A stretch of 64,000 nucleotides of DNA, taken from Phycomyces blakesleeanus NRRL 1555(-) (lineage: Eukaryota > Mucoromycota > Mucoromycetes > Mucorales > Phycomycetaceae). Location: positions 374,391-438,390 of the forward strand of contig NW_017265164.1 in NCBI RefSeq assembly GCF_001638985.1, written 5' to 3'. Every line of letters starts with the position of its first letter. The first letter of the stretch is position 1. A program made the position numbers and the translations under genes. Below are positions 43,110 through 64,000 of the stretch, piece by piece. The notes beneath the pieces are model-generated. The model made no database searches and was not told where the DNA came from. It saw only the letters and a program-made list of their open reading frames with translations.

Positions 43110-45232
43110 TTTTTTAAAATCGAAGTAGAAATAATAGTAAGGTGAGATAGAACCATTGCTGCCTATGATTTCTGGAGTATATATACCTTTTTCAAAGTGA
43201 ATATTGGTAAAAATAAATCAAAGTGTTAGTCATATACTGCCAAGAAGCAACGTCTTTCGTTATCATGTCGAACCAATCCTCGTAAAAGAAGACCACACGA
43301 ATAAAAACGCTTTCCATTTGTGTAGCAGTGTAAACCAATAATATTGTCTCTTTTATTCCGTATATAGAAATAGCACTTGTACTATTTATATACTTCTTCG
43401 TTTTATTTAAAAAATGATAACATTTAACCATATATTTTGCTGTAATAACAGTAAGTTAAAGCAAAAACATTATAAGAAAGTGTTTATGCATATAAAACCT
43501 TTTCTATTTCTCATAAAAGAGCAATATGTGTAAAATAATAGTGGCAGAAGCAATGCCGAAAAAGGGTATTCTTCTAAGCCAATGAAAATTGTTTATATCC
43601 GTTTTTATTTATATCTCCCAGGAATGAATTTTGGTGCTGTCCTGGTGCGATTCCTCTGCTTGTGCTCTGATATAACTCCTTATTATTTTTGTCACTTTAA
43701 TAAATAACACTCTCACCGTATCTACTTTTCCAATTATTGAAATACTAACCCATAAACAATCCCGAATATCTCAACCATAACATAAATTGTTCATATCACC
43801 CTACCTGAGGCATTATCCTGCCTTCACTCATTCATCACACTGAAGAAGATCCGTACGTTATTGCGCGTCACCCTTTTATTTTAGCATTGCTGTTACCAAG
43901 CAGATTTGTCACCATCTGTCGTTGCATCTGTCAGCACGCCATCCCTTAAAGTTGCATACCCAATCGACACCTAAACCTTTTCTCCCTCTGACACACAATT
44001 ATTCCAGATGATTAACAATACCACCTCAAAGTTTCGTGACTGCAGAAGCCAATATAAATAAAATTCGTGTTGTCAAATACATCTTCACAACAAAGTACTA
44101 CGACAAAATGACCAAATCAAGAAAAAAAAATTGACTGAGCATGACTATAAACTGTGTCTTGCATTTCTTCTCTGTCATTTTTTTCATCATAAGTAGTATA
44201 TTGATCTACATATTGTTCTTGCTGGTTTGGTTGATGTGAAATAAATGACATTGCTTGTTAAATCGACACTAATTAGTAAAAATTGTGAAAGAAAAGAAAA
44301 ATAGTCTTAGTTGTGGATCCTGACACGAGGCGTGGTGGTTTTGTTGGCTCTCCACACACCTACTCTGTTTCCAGCCTTCTTTTCCAAAAACGCCGGACCA
44401 CCAAATGTTCCGATACCATTTCACTTAATTTTCCTTTTATTTCCCTTACTTCCGACAATCCCCTAAATTGTTAAAGAAGATATTGACTTGGTCAATTTTT
44501 CCCATACTATTTTGTTGACTAACTTCCTAGTTTCGTAGAGTTGTCCTTTACCAAAATTGTTAAAGACACTCTCTTACTCATTTTCTATAACATCATATTT
44601 TTTGTCACTGATGTCTCCTAGTACTTTCTGATAGAAATTTACATTATTAAAACCTAAATCTATCAATATATTTTACCCAAGAATTAGTATAAATATCTCT
44701 TCAAAAATATTCATTAAACGAGGATTATCATTATTAGTATTGTTTATAGCAGCTTGGGTGTGCATTAAATCAAAATTAACATGGAGAGCTTTAGGATTTT
44801 CTTTTGTGAAACAAAAAGTTGGTCAGAAATCATTTAGTGAGACACATACCGAAGCTTTACTTCTTGGTATTAAAGAACAACGTAGCAATGTTCTTGTGTG
44901 TGAATGAATAAATCGGTATAGAAATTTGTTTTCTTCTTTTGAAACAAAAAAAATATAAAGAAACATTGTGGTACTCTGGTGGTGTTACTTGGCTAATCAT
45001 GAGAACAATAAAAGAAAACAAGCCTATAGGCATTACTGTTTCAATTAATCGGCTTTATTGACTAACTAAATAAAAAGATTTCAAAGAAGAAGAATAAAGA
45101 ATGAGCCCATAAGAATTATTTTCGATAGTCCCGGTGTACTTTTAGGGCTTTATAAATAATTGTAAGCGTGTGTGTATATATATACTTTCCACTTCTTATT
45201 GAATAAATTAAAGTCTTGCTTAAATGTATTTG
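43110..45232. other. gene-poor stretch with unassigned frame fragments
   Basis: No gene supported. Less AT-monotonous than true spacers: a pyrimidine-rich plus strand at 43640-44080 and short in-frame blocks (for example VDPDTRRGGFVGSPHTYSVS at about 44319-44380, and WRALGFSFVKQKVGQKSFSE at about 44780-44840). These suggest old, heavily decayed coding DNA. Nothing could be assigned to a family. Confidence 0.4.
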
Positions 45233-46164
45233 GAATGTAGTATAATTACTCTTTCCTCTCGAAATTTGTGAGTTACATGGCGCCATAGGATCACAAAAGT
45301 ATATCATCTATAGGTGGCATTACACAAACACAACAGTAATGCTTTATCTGACTGTACAAGAAAACAGAAAGGTAAATTTGCACACAATTACACAAACGTA
45401 CACCTCTTAATAATATCTATTTAGACTGGAAACATCCCTAAGCTCACTCAACAGAGAAATTATTTCTGATGAGAGTTTATAGTCAAAATAACTATTGAAT
45501 CACAAAATATTGTACAAGTTTCACTCACTAGTATGATATTTATGCTATTTTGGACAGAAAGCTTGGTTTATTTTGTGTAAAGAAGTTAGACAGAATGGAG
45601 GAAACTTTTTTTTTGGTAAAGTGGGAAATCAATGGCACAAAAATTAGTCGACTTGCAATGCCAATTGGTACTATACACCATTAAATATCCTGATTAAGTT
45701 TATTTGAGCATTTTCTGGTTTCTTCTTCTTTTCTTAAAGCTGTTGTCTAGTCAAAGAATACCCTAAAAAAATTGACTGCAACGTACTTTCAAGTACACAT
45801 ATTTACATACCAAGGAACAGCGCACGTAATCTATTTAGTATTTTGTGATTCAATAGTCGAGAAACTGCCAATGCAAAAGGTTAAAGAAAAAAGTTTTATA
45901 GTTTCAAAGTCAAGATTTCAATTCTCTTAAAAAAATAATTTCTCTATTGAGCTTAGGGATGTTTCCAGTCTAAATAGATATTATTAAGAGGTGTACGTTT
46001 GTGTAATTGTGTGCAAATTTACCTTTCTGTTTTCTTGTACAGTCAGATAAAGCATTACTGTTGTGTTTGTGTAATGCCACCTATAGATGATATACTTTTG
46101 TGATCCTATGGCGCCATGTAACTCACAAATTTCGAGAGGAAAGAGTAATTATACTACATTCTGT
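45233..46164. mobile_element. foldback element with about 225-bp terminal inverted repeats
   Basis: The left arm starts GAATGTAGTATAATTACTC at 45233 and runs to about 45460. The right arm is its reverse complement, ending at 46164 and beginning at about 45945. By eye the arms are nearly identical over some 220 bp. A shorter inner pair (TATTGAATCACAAAAT at about 45493 and its complement near 45842) extends the symmetry imperfectly. The loop of roughly 480 bp has a 30-residue frame with no clear homology. No target-site duplication is obvious. It looks like a non-autonomous long-TIR element, possibly of Tc1/mariner type, ending 170 bp before the peroxiredoxin start codon. Confidence 0.8.
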
Positions 46165-46334
46165 TCAAAAAGAAAACGAAAAATAGATTTTGAATAACTT
46201 TCTTTTAAATAAGGCTTCGACGTTTTCGATTGTCTTCTTTCTCTCTTTCTTTTCTATTCTCATTTGACTCGGGCCTTCTTTATATATCTCTTTCTCTTTC
46301 TTTCTCACGGCAACGTAAACTACGAAAACAAAGA

Positions 46335-51129: not shown

Positions 51130-54081
51130 TTATGGGATATCTATCGAAAGATAAGGACTGATTTTCCTCGTTCTACGGATTGGATTTGAGCGTATCGATA
51201 GACTTGACTCTTCCTTACTATTGTTATTGTTGTTTATGTTTATGTTTTGCTGCCGCCTGAGATTTTTGGTTCTCAACAAAGCAGAATCCGGAAATCTAGT
51301 CAGCATCACAGCTGGAGCTGTCTTCCGACGAGATAAACCACAAATGGGAGGCATAAGTGACTCTGAAGTTGATTCCAAGTCTGAAATTGATCGTGGTTTG
51401 TCTTTTTCTTTTGATTCGAATTCGGATTCGGATTCTTCAATGCTAATTTTGGCCATCTGAAAAAGTGTCTCGGCTGCGGTTGATGGATGATGTGCCTCTG
51501 CCCGCTGATTAAACAAAGCTCCACTAAATATCAGGTGGATTTCTTCCAAAGAGCGTCCCTAAATAATGTCAATAACAGTACAAAGCCGACGGTACCGATT
51601 ACCTTTGTTTCGGGATAATAGTAGTAAATAAGTATAGATATCAAGAAGCAAAGACAGCCAAAGATGATGTATGTTCCCCACAAGATGTTGAGAAACATTA
51701 ACGGAGCGATCTCTACAATAAATATCTGAACACAGAAATTTGCTGCTACTGTGATACCAATTGCCTTTGCTCGGATGAGTTGAGTGTAGATTTCTGCAGG
51801 GTAGACCCAGGCAAGTGTCCCACTTTTGATTAAAAGAGGGTTAGATAAATGAATAGATATCTGGATAGCTTATACCTACAAACTTGCAGAGTGGATGGCC
51901 ATAAAGCCAAATATCAGACTAACTATGGCAATAGATGGCTTGCGATTAATAGACGACATGTTGAATCCAAGTAAGGCGCCTAGACTCTCGGAGTCTGTAT
52001 TCTTGTCGGTAATTTCGGTCTGTAGTCCGGTGATGATAACAATCACAATCATACACACACCCATACCCAGACCACCACAGATTAAGATCTTGCGTCTGTT
52101 GAGCCGATCGACCTATTGAATGAATATTGGATATTTAGAATATCGATTGACTATAGTAGTGCAGTGCTATAGGTCAAGTATACTTGCGTAAAAGAAGACT
52201 AGGATAGTAAATATCAGGCTAATTGTACTTCCAATACTTAGGACTACCAAAATAAAATTATGAATAATATGCATATATGCGTTTATTATCATTAATATTA
52301 ATAATAAGAGACCTACATAACAAAGCCGAGACTCTTTTGGTGCCTAAAACAGGCCCAGCAAGCTGTGGAAGATAAGTCCTGTTCAAATACAAAAGAAAGT
52401 AAGAACAATCAGACGGCAAAAAAGTAATCAAATCAAACTGACTTACTGTAGAGCAGAGATACCACTAAGCTGGCTGGCGGATTGTATACTAGTACCCAAA
52501 AGAGTGCGCCTTGCATTGTTCTCGATACCTTTGGACCACAATCCACCTACTCCTTGTGCATCACATTGTCGATCATAGCCTACATTCTCAAGGATCCGAG
52601 TGTACTCCATCCGCACTGTGTCTTTAATAGGCTCGTCCTTTGCGCATCGCAGATCTGTTAATATACCAAACCCTTCGTCTTTTCGGTCATGACATAGTAA
52701 CCAACGAGGGCTTTATTTATTTTTTAATAAAAAAAAAAGAGGGAGAGATGGTGATAATGATGACTTGAGTTTATGTTTATTTTTTTATTTTTCTCTCTCT
52801 TTTACCTTTCGGGTATAAATAATAGACCGGCAAGTAAAACTACGGCTGGAACGATCTGTAAACCGATAGATATTCTATAAGAAATATAGACAATCGAATG
52901 AATTTGGTTAGAACTTGCCATTTTGTATATATAGATATAAGCTTTACACATTTAAGAACAAAAGTCTCACCTCCAAGCTTTATCAAACGTGTATTTGTGC
53001 AAGGCATACCCAATCCAAAAGGCAACACTGAATCCCAACGTGATCCCCAACTGATGCAGTGTTATAAGCCTACCACGAATATTTGGCAGTGAGACCTCAC
53101 TTTGATCTACTCTTACCTTGCGTTACTTTTCAAGTATCTCCCTCTAATTTTTATATATATGATAGTCACAACAATAAAGAACAATAGCAATACTTACACA
53201 AAGGTACAAGAGAACAAAGTATCCTAAAAGGTTTAGATTAGTAAACGATGTAATGATACAAATCAAATAAAATCAAATTAGTATCTCTCACCCAACAGAA
53301 AAGCTTGCAATCAATCTTCCTAGCAAAAATTCCCAATATTTTCTTGCTAGAAGCTGTATCAGTGAACCAATCAAATCCAGCATGGCAGCTACTCCAAAAG
53401 ATCGTTTACGCCCAATGAAATCTGCCACCAATCCAGAACACTTTTTTGTATGTATGTATAAAAACCAACCAACCAACCAACCAAACAAAATTAAATTAAA
53501 TTAAATTAAATTAATAAATAAATATGATTTGATTTGATTTGATTTGATTGGCAGTTGAAACTTACCAGTGCTCCAAGACAAGACAAAGCAAGTGGTACGA
53601 CCAACAAGACGTTATCTTCAACTTTAGTGTTCTGATAGCCCGAATCACGTTTGTCCAATACGTTGACAGCAATAAGAGCTCCAGAATTATACCTTTATTT
53701 TATTTTATTTTCTTGACGAGGTTAAGATGCCATATAACCCACTCAACCAATAGAAATCACGGTACTTACCCATACTATATAAAACACACACGCACACAAA
53801 TATATAATTTGATTATAAAAAGCATTCACATTTGAAAATCTTACCGCTAAACTTCCAATTGATACAAAACTAAAATAATCATAATCATAATCATAATATT
53901 AAAAAGTAAAATAAAATAAAAAAGCTTAATTGGTATTGGAGAAAAGATTATCGTCAAGAACACACACACACACATCTATATCTTCCTTTTTATTTTGACA
54001 CCGTGTAACATACCTGCATATAAGGTATAGTTTTGTTATCGGGTAAATGAACATCAAGGCGTATATGTTGTTGTTCTTCTG
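51130..54081 (-). CDS. MFS sugar transporter
   Basis: A membrane sugar:proton symporter-family protein with about 12 helices. The 5' end is not resolved: the first coherent exon (about 54081-54014) reads EEQQHIRLDVHLPDNKTIPY and has no upstream Met in frame. The next blocks join as FVSIGSLAYGYNSGALIAVN only if a 5-nt exon (53770-53774) is used. Diagnostic motifs are DFIGRKRSFGVAAMLD, GRLITLHQLGITLGF, PESPRWLLCHDRKDEGF, the central VDRLNRRKILICGG and the C-terminal YPETKGRSLEEIHLIFSGA. The last exon (51549-51130) adds a long hydrophilic tail of about 120 residues, rich in Ser/Glu and Asn repeats and ending in SPYLSIDIP. Such a tail could be regulatory. Substrate not predictable. Confidence 0.8.
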
Positions 54082-54479: not shown

Positions 54480-55444
54480 TTAAAGTGTAATTTTTATTAA
54501 ACATTAAAACTGCATTATCTAAAGAAACCTTTTTCTACTTTCCGACTTCCAAACTTCAATAACCTTTCCCAGTTGTGCGTCCAACACTTAGGAAGGAGCA
54601 ATTAACAAACCTAAAGCAGCAAAGGTAAAGAAGGATTGGTAAGTTACATCATCTTCAATGATTTTACTGTTCAGAAAAACAGCACTACTGTATAAAGCAA
54701 TACAATATGTATATGTATTGTCGTTAAGATCGCTTCATCAGATATTGGTGTAATGTTGTCTCATTAGCCCTTTTCAACTCCTGCTGGGCTTCCGAAGTAG
54801 CAAATATACATAGTCATCATATCGATCTTGTTGTGACAATATAATACACATATTTGATTTGATAGTTTACCTATGAAAATCAATAAACCAAGAGTTAATA
54901 TAACTGCAAATTGTTCAAATGATCTCAAGTACAAGCAACCGCAATGATTTGTAACAGAGTATGTATAAATGTATATATGTCTGTACGTTATATACTCTCA
55001 GATATTGTGTGGTTGTATTTATCTCATTAGCACTCCCGCTTCTGAAGTAGCAAATATATAACAATCATCATTTTCATATATACATATTGACATACATACA
55101 AGCACACATACTCTTTATTATAATTATAAAGATAATAATACTATAAAAGAAGTGCATTTTATGATATTTACCTTGTTTATATATTCGTCTCTCTTGATAA
55201 GTTGCGCTTGAATCTTGGATGCTTAAGAAGCAAAGAGATTCCAATGTCTTGAGAACAAATCACAGATACTTTAAGAATGAATCGTCATAATTATCCTCAA
55301 CCCTCTGAATCCAAAAAGACTTTTCTTCTTCTTCTTTTTTTCTTGACGCGAGTGTGTAGAAATGGTTGTATATACAACATATCCAATTGCTCAACAAAAT
55401 ATTCTTTTGTTGTTGGATAGAATCAATCACAAATCCATAATGAC

Positions 55445-55475
<31 letters not shown>

Positions 55476-55797
55476 TCTTCAATCTTTGAGTAAATCTATA
55501 AAACATAATAAATTTATATCAGATATCATATCATATATCCGTCCATCCATCCATCCATCCATCCATCCATCTATCCATCTATCTATCAAATACTTCATTG
55601 ATAACTTAATAGTATTTTATATATCAATATTTACCTTTGTGATGTCTGCAGACAATTTGACAATGTAAAATCAAGTTAAAGAGATGAAATTGAAAGAATT
55701 GGTTTGAATGTGTGTGTACGTGTGTACGTGTTTCAACTGTTTCAATGTGAATTTTTTTATATATATAAAAATAATATAATGTCCGATACATTAACAA
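54480..55797. repeat. left arm of a 1.3-kb inverted repeat
   Basis: Matches the reverse complement of 60482-61837 nearly base for base; only a handful of single-base differences and small microsatellite indels were seen. The left arm lacks 36 bp found near the outer end of the right arm. It includes (AAT)n and (ATCC)n arrays. Read on the minus strand it contains exon-like blocks (see the right arm). Confidence 0.93.
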
Positions 55798-55990
55798 AAA
55801 AAAATGTATGATAAAAACTGTTATATATCAAGCTTGAATTTAGTCATTATAGAAGCCAAATACCATTTACCAAGAAATAATATAAGTCATTAGAGATGCT
55901 AGATTCAATTCCGGATAGTAGGTAAGCATATATACATGTGTATATTGAATGTAAGTGAAAATAAATAAACTATAGCCACCAGCAATCTTA

Positions 55991-57224
55991 CGAGAACGAC
56001 GTTTCCTGGTGGGGCACGACGTTTCTATCTAAACGGACTAATTCATTGCGACTACATGTCTGGGGTCCGGCGTCTTTCTCTAATCCTTCAATACAAAATG
56101 GCGTGTCCTAAAAAAACAATATATTCATTGCATCCATTAGCTTTAATACTTTGTCCCCACACTTTGTGTTTATCTATCTCTTCCAAGACACCTAACTCTC
56201 ATTATTTTAAGAGACACAGTCTGTATTTGGGCAACTTAATAATAAAATGATATCTCATACGAAAAAAAAATCCTGTATGTTCAATTAGTAGCCCTGAATT
56301 TAGACTTGACAATAAAGAAATAGTAATTAGAGCATCCGTAGCAGTAGCATTTAAATTCAGTTTTTCCCGATTTAAATGCTTTTTGGAAATGCTTTCCAAA
56401 AAAGTGGTCTGCAGCAGTAGCTTTTCCGACAGCATCTAATTCCATGCTCCGTAATTTTTATGACCTTGAGCAATGAAATAGATGCTCATTTTAAAAACTT
56501 GCTGAGCATTTAAATTGTTTTTCTTATTTATTTTTTCTTTAAATCGAATAATAGTGTATAGCAACACTTACAAAAACTCACAAAAATTATGCTCACTACA
56601 AAGCTGATATTCTTGAAGACATTTAACTTGTGTTTTTTATATTAGAAATAAAAGAAAAATATCTAATAATAATGAATTTTACTAGTGAAGAAGACTATAC
56701 CAGATAGTATAATTATCTAAATGCTTCTTTTTATTATGCTACTGATATTTTACCCTCCATTTTTTTTACTTCTTTTAACCTCAGATGTCGCTTATGAGCA
56801 CTCAATTTAATGCTAATTGAAATGCTACTGCTACGGATGCTCTTAGTCACACATACATTATATCAATTACCAACCATGCAGAAGATCATAAGGAGTTGTT
56901 GTCAATATAGAGTGTGACGCAATATTGCTTGATATTCTACTATTTATTATCCTTCTTACGCGTATAATGCCTTTCTCTTTCTTTTACTTACTTACATTCC
57001 CAGAGTCTGACAGTACGAACTGGTAAGTAACCTCCCATCCACTCTTTTTTGAAAAGTATAAAATAAATTCTTTATGAATATTTTGTATCCTGGCTGATAT
57101 TAATTATTATACTAAGAATTGATCCTTAGGGACCAGATAGAGTTATTCCATGCCGGCAGAAAGGCCACGATTTGTGGTCCGATAGAATCGAAATGTTGTC
57201 TCCCACCAGGAAATGTCGTTCCCC
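55991..57224. mobile_element. decayed inverted-repeat element inside the large repeat structure
   Basis: GAACGACGTTTCCTGGTGG at 55994-56012 pairs with CCACCAGGAAATGTCGTTC at 57203-57221 (one mismatch in 19). The similarity continues inward, more diverged (CACGACGTTTCTATCT against GACAACATTTCGATTCTATC). Each end has two copies of an ACGACGTTTC-like core about 20 bp apart. Length about 1.23 kb. It hosts the MITE at 56330-56842. No transposase frame remains. The superfamily is not assignable. Confidence 0.55.
56330..56842. mobile_element. MITE with 3-bp TTA target duplication (PIF/Harbinger-like)
   Basis: The ends are GAGCATCCGTAGCAGTAGCATT at 56330 and its reverse complement ending at 56842, both perfect for at least 22 bp. 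Direct TTA copies flank the element (56327-56329 and 56843-56845). Size 513 bp, AT-rich and non-coding. Short terminal inverted repeats plus a TTA/TWA duplication are the hallmark of PIF/Harbinger MITEs. Confidence 0.75.
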
Positions 57225-57879
57225 CTAGAATTAGCAAATTAGCCTTTTATTCTATGGAATAATAGACCTGACATCCAGCTCTTCTACAAAACGACAAGCT
57301 ATTATAAAAGAGCGCTACATAAATTAAATAATCGATCTTGCAAAAAATAACACCTCTTCTGAAAGAGTGGCCCCAGACTCTGACGGCACAACATATAAAG
57401 ACATTAAGAATTTTACAACGGAAGTAATCGACCTCTCAGTAAGTCCATAAAATGAAGGTTTAACGTATATTATGTTCTAAAGCCATCCGTTCTGTAGAAC
57501 AATCAATCTGAGCTTCGAATTTCCATCAAACAAGCCATAAATACTGTGCGTGCAAACAAAGACTAGACTTCCACATAAAAAAAAAAGGCAATAAGACTCA
57601 TGAAACAAATGTAAGAAAAAAAAGTTTAGAAATCTAAGCTTAAAATACAATTGAATAACATATGTTTTTTTTTTTGGTAGACGGGATACTTACTCTTCTG
57701 TCACATATTGTTCTATTTACAGCTAGCAAGGAAAACTACACCTTATTGCTACTTTTTTGGCACCACTTTTGAAAGAACTGTTTAAAAGATAGTCTCAGTT
57801 CAGGTTGCAGTGGTAAGACATGTACAAGCACCACATTTCACCCAATTATTCTTAAGGTTTCAAAGTTAAATAACGAGTT

Positions 57880-58440
57880 TTGCTTTTTAGGGGGGACCAG
57901 GTTCTTCCGGCTGATAAAGAAGATAAGCAAAGAACTCAAAAAGACAGCGAAAGACGAAATCGAGACAATATTCCTGATGCTCTTTTGAGCCTGAACAAAT
58001 TTGAGCTTCAGTTCACTCTTGTGAAGGTGAGCGGTCCACTTAACCAACCCAACCACCAGCATTTTGTTGGAGACAAAATAAGGCTGGCAAAGGACTTGAA
58101 GTCAAGTTTAAAGAAAAATAAGAAGAATGATAAAGTTTGGAGACCAAGGCTTGTATGAAAATTTTAAAGTTCTTGGCATTCAAGTATATTGTGAATGTTA
58201 TATATATTTTTCCTTGACCTGAAATTTTCTGGATAATTACTTTAATAGTAAATAAAATATATGTATACCATCTTTCACAAGCAAGTAGAGGGATCTACAT
58301 CTTCGAAGATGTTATGCCATTCGACTTGGTCTGTCTCGGTGAATTGTTTTTTAGTTTCACACCAAAATCGTTAAAACATTTATGGAGATTAAAGGTTTGT
58401 ACTGAAACACACTATTTATTGTTTATGCTGTCCACCACCT
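57880..58440 (+). pseudogene. fragment of a multi-copy hypothetical protein
   Basis: Block 1 (57880-58137) includes ALLSLNKFELQFTLVKVSGP and HQHFVGDKIRLAKDLKSSLK. After a one-base shift, block 2 reads FGDQGLYENFKVLGIQVYCE. After about 70 non-coding bases, block 3 reads GIYIFEDVMPFDLVCLGELF and SFTPKSLKHLWRLK. The order (E/K-VSGP, HFVGD-K-AK-LK, K-x-GIQV, GIYIF-E) recalls the C-terminal part of hypothetical proteins repeated many times in Mucoromycota genomes. I say this from memory, not from a search. Function unknown. Frameshift and gap make it a relic. Confidence 0.45.
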
Positions 58441-60481
58441 AATAACCTATTTTGTTAATTATAGAGCCTTTTCGCTAATAGTGCGTTATCAGCCGAGGAT
58501 TTTTTTTAAATAGCGTTTCCGTAATGATAGGTCGTCGGCTTACGACCTTTGCTAAAATATTTGGCACAATAAGTGGTATTGAATTTTCCAGACAGCCGGA
58601 CAGTCTATAAAATATGTAGACATCGAGGCCAAGGGCAGAATCGAGTGAGAAGACAAATGGGAATGTAGTTGGAAGACTCTATAGTGTATATTTAGGGCTG
58701 CGTATATTCCATGTAATCATACTCCATTAAGGATTCATCAGAAGAACGTTTTTTAGAGCTGTATGGAACTGACAATAGATATTGACTGAGAAAGCTGAGA
58801 ACTTGAAGGGGAATAGAGAAGTAGTTGGCACCATAAAGCATTTTGCTAATTGGGAGTAATCAAGGCTGCGTAAATCTTTTTTTTTTTTGATTTCTTTTAA
58901 AAAAAATTCTTACAATCTACTTTAAGCTTATTTTAAAAATAAGCTACCTTTTAATAAAAATTAATACCATAATACATTTTTTTTAAAAAAAATAAGGTTG
59001 TCATTGAATACAACGCAGCCCAATTTACCGGACAAACCACACACACACACTGAATAAGCTGTGCGGTTTATTAATAGACTCCATCAGCTAAAGAAAATAA
59101 ACAGATTGACACGGGGTTTTGCAAGACATAGGTAGGTAGGTAGGGGGGTCAAATGTTAAACTAAACTAAAATTTGAATGTATAATGTGCTGTAGTATATG
59201 TGTATTTATTTAACTTTATAACACATCGGCTTATTCTTTAATAAGGATAGTGTCAAGAACATATTTGTGCGTGTGTGCTTGTGTAATTAAACATCAATGT
59301 AAATAAAAGCTTAAAAAAAAGCCAAGCTAAAAAGTGTACAACTGTAGTCCATATAAGTAGAAATCTAACAATGACCAATGTGCTCACAAGCCTCGTTTAG
59401 TTCTTGTTCTTTTGTATTTTGAAAGATGCTATAATAAATTCGATCAGTATTATGTTTTGTTTCTGTTTTTGTTTTTCTTTGGTCGGTTGTAATTGTGTCA
59501 AGAGCCAATATATCCATATATATATATATAATAGCTGTTTATCATGTGACAAAATTGCCTTAAAGCACAAGATACATACAATATCTTACATGTAAGTACA
59601 AATGTAAACAAGTCAGTTGATTATATGGTGTATGATTCTAGGAGTGCCTTTTTTTTGTCTTTTGTTTCTTATCGTTTCGTTTCATTTAATACGCTGTCCT
59701 ACCATTAATGTATAAAAGAAAGGGAAATCCTTAAGGCATTTTATTTTATTATCATCTTTTCTTTCTTTCAGATCTAGATTCATTTAGTATAGTAACAGTC
59801 ATGAGAAATTAGAAATGGTCTTGGCTTGCATCGTATTTAAAAAGCCTCTATGGTCTAATACTTGTTAGTAGCAAATGTTTCTCTATTTACAGATATGCAG
59901 TAGACCAGAATACACAACATAAGCAACATGATTGTCATTTCAAGAATAGCACCGTAAACACCCGATCAGTAACTATTGGTGTTGTTTAGACTGTATTTCA
60001 AGATTCTCGCAAAATGTTATTGAAATAGCAATAATTTTTTTTTTTGGAAAAGTTTATTAGTCTGATTTTCATCAATATTTCTTAATAAGATAACATTGTA
60101 CAGATGTGTATATGTTTTGTATTTCCCTAAATCTGGTGATCTATAGATACCAAATAATGTAAAACGCCAATGTCATTCTTTCTTTTACAAGCCAATCTTT
60201 AGAATAGCCTTGTGATACGAAACACATCAGGGCACAATCTGTAACATGTCTTTATATCATCTACTCTGGCTAATGGCTTCTTTTAATTGATCAGTAAATA
60301 TACAATAATAGATAATACTTTCTTCCACCCATCATCATTTCAACACCATGGCTTTTACAATTCAAAAGAAAAAGCCATATATGTAATTATATACACATTT
60401 TAAACCTAAATAAATAAATAAATAAAAATTGTATATACTCTGATATTACTTTAACTTACCAGCTACTCGGATTTTTTTTAG

Positions 60482-61837
60482 TTTGTTAATGTATCGGACA
60501 TTATATTATTTTTATATATAAAAAAAAAATTCACATTGAAACAGTTGAAACACGTACACACGTACACACACATTCAAACCAATTCTTTCAATTTCATCTC
60601 TTTAACTTGATTTTACATTGTCAAATTGTCTGCAGACATCACAAAGGTAAATATTGATATATAAAATACTACTAAGTTATCAATGAAGTATTTGATAGAT
60701 AGATGAATAGATGGATAGATGGATGGATGGATGGATGGATGGATGGACGGATATATGATATGATATCTGATATAAATTTATTATGTTTTATAGATTTACT
60801 CAAAGATTGAAGATATTATTATTATTATTATTATTGTCATTATGGATTTGTGATTGATTCTATCCAACAACAAAAGAATATTTTGTTGATCAATTGGATA
60901 TGTTGTATATACAACCATTTCTACACACTCGCGTCAAGAAAAAAAGAAGAAGAAGAAAAGTCTTTTTGGATTCAGAGGGTTGAGGATAATTATGACGATT
61001 CATTCTTAAAGTATCTGTGATTTGTTCTCAAGACATTGGAATCTCTTTGCTTCTTAAGCATCCAAGATTCAAGCGCAACTTATCAAGAGGGACGAATATA
61101 TAAACAAGGTAAATATCATAAAATGCACTTCTTTTATAGTATTATTATCTTTATAATTATAATAAAGAGTATGTGTGCTTGTATGTATGTCAATATGTAT
61201 ATATGAAAATGATGATTGTTATATATTTGCTACTTCAGAAGCGGGAGTGCTAATGAGATAAATACAACCACACAATATCTGAGAGTATATAACGTACAGA
61301 CATATATACATTTATACATACTCTGTTACAAATCATTGCGGTTGCTTGTACTTGAGATCATTTGAACAATTTGCAGTTATATTAACTCTTGGTTTATTGA
61401 TTTTCATAGGTAAACTATCAAATCAAATATGTGTATTATATTGTCACAACAAGATCGATATGATGACTATGTATATTTGCTACTTCGGAAGCCCAGCAGG
61501 AGTTGAAAAGGGCTAATGAGACAACATTACACCAATATCTGATGAAGCGATCTTAACGACAATACATATACATATTGTATTGCTTTATACAGTAGTGCTG
61601 TTTTTCTGAACAGTAAAATCATTGAAGATGATGTAACTTACCAATCCTTCTTTACCTTTGCTGCTTTAGGTTTGTTAATTGCTCCTTCCTAAGTGTTGGA
61701 CGCACAACTGGGAAAGGTTATTGAAGTTTGGAAGTCGGAAAGTAGAAAAAGGTTTCTTTAGATAATGCAGTTTGAGTTGGTGTTTGTGCATTTGAACCTT
61801 TATACTTCTTTAATGTTTAATAAAAATTACACTTTAA
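60482..61837. repeat. right arm of the 1.3-kb inverted repeat
   Basis: Reverse complement of 54480-55797, 1356 bp. Plus-strand exon-like blocks: 60936-61012 region (KSFWIQRVEDNYDDSFLKYL, then a TGA in frame), 61479-61556 (ATSEAQQELKRANETT, ends LMKRS-stop) and 61594-61692 (SAVFLNSKIIEDDVTYQSFF, TFAALGLLIAPS, stop). Shortened, diverged copies of the last two blocks lie just upstream at about 61230-61280 and 61360-61412. So each arm also contains an internal duplication. No intact gene can be assembled. Confidence 0.93.
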
Positions 61838-62664: not shown

Positions 62665-64000
62665 TCACTTGCAGATAACCTTTATACGTTTGAGATGTCG
62701 AAGACGATCTTCTGGAGGGGGGTCTGCTATCCAATTAGCTACATCTGTGCCTACATTATTGTTCGGGCCTGCTGACTGGAGAGCCAAAACTCTGAGATCA
62801 CGGAGGTCTTTGGCCCAATGTATGACAGTCTTGCTTGTATACCCACACAAAATATCTGCAGTAATCCAATCATGATATCCAATATCCCAATAATGTAAGC
62901 GTTGTAAGCCTTGTGACAGAATCCGAAGTGTTAAAGGGCCTTCTGATGGGCCAAATGTTCCGGCAGTTGATAAAGAAAGGAGATTCGGCAGAGTGGCACA
63001 CAAGAGATGCGCGAGGGCAACTGAAGGAAGAACAGGACGTACAAAAGAGAGATTAAGTGAGACAAGCTGAGTGGATAGGGGAGTAAAGAGACGGTAAGGT
63101 TGATTGGGTTTCATGGATCGTCCCAGAATTACGCGCAGGATATCTTGGATAGAGTAAAAGTTTTCGTTTTCTTGGTCCTCTGGATCATATGTGTAGAAGT
63201 GGATGCTAGAGTTGTTGTGGTTATGGTCATAATCATTACTGCCACTTTCACCATTATTATCACTATTATTATAATTGTCAGTAATTTTATCTTCTATTGC
63301 ATCCTCCCAGTCATCTGCTAACGAATCTTCATCGGCTGAAGAAATCTTAGGTCGTGCGTGTTCTGGACGAGCACGCCAGAATACTTGGATCAATTTATTT
63401 AAGGAAACCGACGATCCCTCTAGACAAAGATGTGTATAATGATCGTGACCACCGAATAAATACAAGAACTGATCGGGCAATCCGTTGTATCCCAAACGAT
63501 GCAGCGCACTGAATTCTTGGAGGATAATTTCCTTGGCCGTCATTGGTAGAGCTGAAAAGTACCTAGCACATTTTCCAGGAGCAGAGGAATGCCATGTCTT
63601 GAGAGATTTGGCAATCTCATGCGCACAGATTACACGCAGACTTGTGAAAGTTCTTTTGGTAATGTAGCTAATGTCTTCTGTTTTACGTCGAGGAGTAGCA
63701 ACGATAGGTTTTGGCAGCCAAGAAGGTGGAGGTGGGGGTCCGGCTGGAGCACGATGAGTCGCGGTTGATGCTCCAGACGTATCTGTAGCTGAAGCCATAC
63801 TCATAGCCGTAACGGCGGCCGTGACTGCAGCTGCATTATGTGTAGATTTTTCAGGAGTTGATTCCCAAGAAAAAGTCCATTCGGCAGGTGAGTGAAAGGA
63901 AATTGGAGCACTTGATGTACCTTGGGCATCTTGGCGTTTTTGGCGATTCATTTCAGCTCGTCCCTGCTCAAATCGCATCTTAGCGAGTTTCGCAGTGACA
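62665..64000 (-). CDS. uncharacterised protein with leucine-rich C-terminal half (5' partial)
   Basis: An uninterrupted frame of at least 445 codons that is still open at the window edge (KLAK before the Met at 63978), so the true start may lie outside. The N-terminal 100 residues are Ala/Ser/Pro-rich. A helical block follows (RRKTEDISYITKRTFTSLRV; ILQEFSALHRLGYNGLPDQF). An acidic Asn-rich linker lies at about residues 215-265. The C-terminal part shows LRR-like periodicity: TQLVSLNLSFVRPVLPSVAL, CATLPNLLSLSTAGTFG, SQGLQRLHYWDIGYHDW and DLRDLRVLALQSAG. It resembles fungal F-box/LRR-type hypotheticals, but no F-box is seen. Function not assigned. Confidence 0.6.
   Translation of the reverse strand, partial: VTAKLAKMRFEQGRAEMNRQKRQDAQGTSSAPISFHSPAEWTFSWESTPEKSTHNAAAVTAAVTAMSMASATDTSGASTATHRAPAGPPPPPSWLPKPIVATPRRKTEDISYITKRTFTSLRVICAHEIAKSLKTWHSSAPGKCARYFSALPMTAKEIILQEFSALHRLGYNGLPDQFLYLFGGHDHYTHLCLEGSSVSLNKLIQVFWRARPEHARPKISSADEDSLADDWEDAIEDKITDNYNNSDNNGESGSNDYDHNHNNSSIHFYTYDPEDQENENFYSIQDILRVILGRSMKPNQPYRLFTPLSTQLVSLNLSFVRPVLPSVALAHLLCATLPNLLSLSTAGTFGPSEGPLTLRILSQGLQRLHYWDIGYHDWITADILCGYTSKTVIHWAKDLRDLRVLALQSAGPNNNVGTDVANWIADPPPEDRLRHLKRIKVICK

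Follow-up and report, generated by a model that had tools for sequence, protein, structure and literature searches.

How two nearly identical stretches of DNA came to face each other across an older core is the question raised by a locus in the genome of the fungus Phycomyces blakesleeanus NRRL 1555(-). The locus, here called inverted repeat 1 (IR1), lies in a window of 64 kb, which is the whole stretch of DNA analyzed (C34:374391-438390); positions given without a contig are those of the window. A NudC-domain protein encoded in the window has 100% identity to a P. blakesleeanus protein and 80% to one of P. nitens. It consists of a left arm (54480-55798, minus orientation), a core or spacer of 4.7 kb (55799-60481), and a right arm (60482-61837, plus orientation). 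The two arms are near-identical inverted copies around older DNA, and a third copy was not found. IR1 is a real and unique local inverted duplication of a known kind, and on present evidence it is not a transposon. We think it probable that single-copy, apparently non-coding host DNA, rather than a mobile element, was duplicated here by fold-back or template-switch repair. No description of the structure is present in the titles and abstract openings listed by literature searches on this topic.

A global alignment of the left arm with the reverse-complemented right arm bears out the near-identity claimed in the initial annotation of this DNA. Among 1310 aligned bases, 1306 are identical (99.7%), and the four substitutions are located at 55190, 55390, 55609, and 55759 (left-arm coordinates). 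Gap blocks of 37, 8, and 1 bp are absent from the left arm, and one of 9 bp is absent from the right arm. The extra block in the right arm had been noticed before, but its length is 37 bp (61774-61810), not 36 bp. The 8- and 9-bp gaps are length changes in CATC/TATC and ATT microsatellites. Within the window, the longest exact inverted match spans 683 bp, compared with 15–18 bp in simulations (20 first-order Markov windows of 64 kb). With arms of more than 30 bp and more than 85% identity, IR1 falls within the long inverted repeats as delimited in PMC5414712. The inner 46% of the arm (55190 onward in left coordinates) contains every one of the four substitutions and the two microsatellite changes, and the 37-bp difference is near the outer end. 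The arms are identical in the outermost 27 bp, beyond the 37-bp difference, and in the innermost 39 bp.

The arms are apparently non-coding DNA of a single locus. In a search of the left arm against the 53.5-Mb, 60-contig assembly, only the two arms matched; the search skips very common words and can miss some repeats, but for part of the core it still listed 82 matches. Nor did the arms occur as unrelated single repeats elsewhere, an outcome that would have argued against one element and was looked for. The initial annotation had suggested a search for further copies by their outer ends; the exact 25-mer at the outer end is present in the assembly only at its two sites in this locus; versions with three mismatches are found at three other sites, on C5 and C41. 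A Pfam scan of three arm open reading frames (ORFs) and two arm peptides gave no match above the cut-off, only weak ones below it (e.g., E 0.052). Coding arms were rejected: a composite of the arm peptides scored no protein at E 10 or better among 15 database candidates, in a search confined to proteins of similar length sharing five-residue words. In its own genome, the composite matches only the two arms.

Searches of the assembly with the two flanks of IR1 gave only similarities of approximately 50–115 bp elsewhere, and no convincing sign emerged that the arms derive from the flanks or the core. The 37-bp block was considered as a templated insert, but even with up to three mismatches allowed it matches nothing else in the window. 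Which arm is the original is indicated neither by the junctions nor by the indel. The right arm contains a faint tandem duplication (61128-61327 and 61388-61581) with 64% identity across roughly 200 bp, and its mirror image is present in the left arm. Because it is common to both arms, it is older than the inverted duplication.

The core between the arms is, judged by its sequence, older DNA with nested and decayed elements, as had been described. It includes an old repeat (TE-A, 55980-57235) split by a miniature inverted-repeat transposable element (MITE, 56330-56842). TE-A is present in at least 25 other places, in pieces of 68–86% identity, and the MITE has relatives at no fewer than 15 other places, its best full-length copy being 97% identical (C15); both counts are lower bounds, as 40 of 350 candidates were scored and 82 matches were listed. 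The MITE has the inverted ends GAGCATCCGTAGCAGTAGCATT with TTA on both sides and is Tourist/PIF-Harbinger-like. The same MITE also interrupts a further TE-A copy, at another position in the repeat (C4:1875768-1876968), and therefore the nesting seemingly happened at least twice. A decayed coding relic follows, namely a 94-amino-acid (aa) ORF (57874-58155, plus strand) of an uncharacterized Mucorales protein family, which has 28% identity to a portion of a 399-aa open frame located on C12. This C12 frame has eight listed relatives, including hypothetical proteins of Mucor, Pilaira, and Rhizopus, and its Pfam scan gave no match. On its right side, the core is almost unique, with similarities of 353 bp at 93% on C42 (58522-58875), 289 bp at 73% on C21, and 30 bp on C18. 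Because the best matches are 97% for the MITE and 86% for TE-A, compared with 4 substitutions in 1310 bases for the arms, the core repeats are older than the last common state of the arms.

These features bear on the proposal of an unrecognized transposon class, under which IR1 would be a DNA transposon present only once, with inverted ends of kilobase length and a TTAA target. Both arms end flush on TTAA, which would suit a TTAA duplication. However, TTAA is expected at approximately 1% of positions in such AT-rich DNA (an estimate from composition), and a TTAA at one arm end is automatically mirrored at the other in any inverted pair. No exact direct repeat of 2–20 bp abuts the outer ends, consistent with the earlier statement that no target duplication is obvious. 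The several dispersed copies typical of a transposon were not found, and the core consists of older nested repeat and relic DNA. Pfam scans of 10 of the 27 core ORFs (≥45 aa) gave no match above the curated cut-off. The missing third copy, the outer end at one locus, the TTAA as the only candidate target duplication, and the lack of a Pfam match in the core ORFs scanned thus speak against a transposon family, and we give this proposal hardly any credence.

An assembly artefact was also considered. IR1 ends approximately 31 kb before the end of its contig, C34 (467,688 bases). The last bases of locus L029, at the contig end, comprise a poly-G run and sequence resembling a cloning vector. The apparent vector suggests that the assembly may derive from capillary reads, which are shorter than the arms. 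The orientation of the core in the assembly is not safe. On the other hand, the arms differ at four bases and four gaps, each joins distinct neighbors, and the window contains no Ns. An erroneous duplicate of single-copy sequence should be identical in a haploid genome, which we assume this to be. We consider an artefact very unlikely. Near the contig end, L029 also contains a long array of diverged tandem repeats (L029:1913-5459).

Of the three origins considered in the initial annotation, a very recent inverted duplication is the best supported by the abrupt edges of the arms, their presence at a single locus, and a second case nearby. The second case, IR2, is another unique inverted pair 8.3 kb from IR1, with 237-bp arms (45229-45465, plus; 45933-46169, minus) and a 467-bp spacer. 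Across 233 aligned bases its arms differ by one substitution, their alignment has two gaps of 4 bp, and no further copy of them was found in the assembly. The IR2 spacer contains an inner exact stem of 19 bp (45491-45509, plus; partner at 45839-45857) located 25 and 75 bp inside the spacer edges, and a 19-bp match within 100 bp of both edges occurred in none of 2000 random spacers. No same-orientation pair of ≥100 bp and ≥85% identity was present in the window, with the low-complexity filter on. Given two inverted pairs and zero direct pairs, fold-back or template switching fits better than unequal crossing-over, although this bias towards inverted copies consists of two cases only.

We infer that IR1 arose recently and through one of these two processes. 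At one edge of the present core, a stalled fork or a DNA end would fold back, or switch template, onto the complementary strand approximately 4.7 kb away; a short inverted match of A/T bases may have served as primer. A polymerase would then copy about 1.3 kb outward. Once freed, the copied strand would be attached to the far side of the break, needing little or no homology. The expected product would be a copy, a spacer, and an inverted copy, without target duplication. The arms would have diverged later by the four substitutions, two microsatellite changes, and 1- and 37-bp indels, with or without gene conversion. A possible priming site is AAAAAAT at the left spacer edge (55799-55805, plus), which forms a 7-bp inverted match with 60471-60477. 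Of 3000 random spacers, 26 had a match at least this long no more than 15 bp from each edge. A looser count of 8–9 bp (P 0.002, 0.004, and 0.09 within 15, 30, and 100 bp) had included arm bases and was not used. The spacer-edge matches of IR1 and IR2 are suggestive of fold-back but not proof of it.

Published cases provide a scale for these values. In human fold-back duplications, the unduplicated spacers are reported to be 766–70,466 bp long (median 3,428), and the inner junctions have inverted microhomology of 2–8 bp in 13 of 21 cases, inserted bases in 5, and repeats in 3 (PMC3907307). In yeast, short fold-back copies are captured via end-joining with 0–5 bp of microhomology (PMC11724301), and break-induced inverted duplications require polymerase delta (PMC10622511).

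Several points weigh against a recent fold-back event. The 7-bp match is a weak A/T run, equaled by 161 of 3000 random spacers within 30 bp and by 762 within 60 bp, and four bases lie between it and the right arm. At the inner edge of IR2 the match is only 4 bp, as in 2608 of 3000 random spacers within 30 bp. The human cases described are terminal or involve translocations, and most of the local copies in yeast measure less than 14 bp; neither is exactly like the interstitial, 1.3-kb IR1. A survey of 23 other loci (107,511 bases) contained no other unique inverted pair, and so does not show a high rate; these loci were picked by other criteria and are mostly about 3 kb long, and are hence blind to long spacers. 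Recency is read solely from arm identity, which gene conversion could also yield. The sole pair of ≥100 bp and 90% identity in the surveyed loci is a MITE-derived palindrome on C15 (L005:1192-1937; C15:357080-357825). It is approximately 740 bp long and 90.7% identical, and overlaps two inverted copies of the same MITE as in the core of IR1.

Gene conversion was the remaining origin proposed for IR1. It would make IR1 an old inverted repeat whose arms are kept alike by arm-to-arm exchange, as in palindromes and some inverted-repeat centromeres. Near-identical arms enclosing an older core are expected from such a process, and uneven conversion tracts could explain why the substitutions and microsatellite changes are confined to the inner 46% of the arm. 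However, four substitutions falling in 46% of the arm is roughly a 1-in-20 event, which is not telling either. Conversion should reach the edges poorly, yet the outer 27 bp and inner 39 bp are identical. This identity leans towards youth, although 66 bp is little sequence and a weak indication. We regard long-standing conversion as a rather unlikely origin of IR1, though one to be taken seriously.

Long inverted repeats can also yield double-stranded RNA for RNA interference (PMC5414712), and IR1 could be a hairpin RNA locus feeding this pathway. The geometry of IR2, with its short arms and spacer, would be suitable. In IR1, the loop would be 4.7 kb, and no other locus matching the arms as a possible target was found. 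We consider a hairpin RNA locus highly improbable.

The surroundings of IR1 are relevant to one further explanation. To the left of the left arm is a sugar-transporter gene on the minus strand (51534-52112, Pfam PF00083); its Pfam hits extend to 52112, and its 5' part was followed by eye to about 53.8 kb. The right neighbor is an unnamed 444-aa ORF ending at 62668, without a Pfam match. No recognized gene is present between the two, with gene limits set partly by eye. No tRNA or tmRNA was found in the window, and no Rfam family reached its gathering score there.

This long intergenic setting raises the question of whether IR1 is an inverted-repeat centromere, in which conversion would maintain the near-identity of the arms, and the older, non-coding DNA between them would hold a kinetochore, in a lineage that has lost CENP-A. 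In Barnettozyma, centromeric inverted repeats are described as pairs of 99–100% identity in long intergenic regions; those of B. discipulorum are 1.0–1.4 kb long, and the centromeres of B. californica lack mutual similarity (PMC12711049). Komagataella phaffii centromeres have inverted repeats of approximately 2.5 kb around 0.8–1.3 kb (PMC7332064). For P. blakesleeanus, no obvious CENP-A is reported, and as of 2018 the centromeres had not been mapped (PMC6107279). IR1 likewise places near-identical arms in a long intergenic region, as far as its gene limits can be drawn. However, a smaller pair of the same kind, IR2, is on the same contig 8.3 kb away, the neighbors are ordinary genes, and what favors a centromere is anatomical only. 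We find such a centromere scarcely credible. If it were one, filamentous early-diverging fungi would have reached the centromere architecture of some yeasts without the centromeric histone, and a centromere would be located in a CENP-A-less fungus.

The local inverted duplication that we favor has consequences of its own. The occurrence of IR1 and IR2 within 17 kb suggests, without showing it, a high frequency of local inverted copying in this AT-rich genome. If the frequency is high, fold-back repair would be measurable from natural sequence. With kilobase arms this alike, the core could also lie in opposite orientations in different strains. PacBio assemblies are described for two Phycomyces strains, UBC21 and L51 (PMC11258239).

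Among known systems, terminal inverted repeat DNA transposons, including long-ended Mutator-like elements (MULEs), also have inverted ends flanking a core (PMC6446971). IR1 differs from them in its single locus, in having no target duplication other than the flush TTAA, and in the absence of a Pfam match in the core ORFs scanned; its arms are also longer than the 14–500 bp MULE ends analyzed in that paper. The flip/flop inverted repeats of yeast mating-type loci can invert the intervening segment (PMC6692504), as the arms of IR1 might, but no mating-type gene was recognized in the scanned core ORFs or the named neighbors of IR1. The centromeres of Barnettozyma (PMC12711049) and K. phaffii (PMC7332064) share with it a core within near-identical arms (99–100% in Barnettozyma) in a long intergenic region. 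They differ from IR1, which has IR2 nearby and a host without obvious CENP-A; the likeness is one of anatomy. Compared with published fold-back duplications, IR1 is interstitial, has 1.3-kb arms, lacks a terminal deletion, and has weak inner microhomology. Like IR1, these fold-back duplications comprise inverted copies around a single-copy spacer, with little homology at the junctions (PMC3907307; PMC10622511; PMC11724301).

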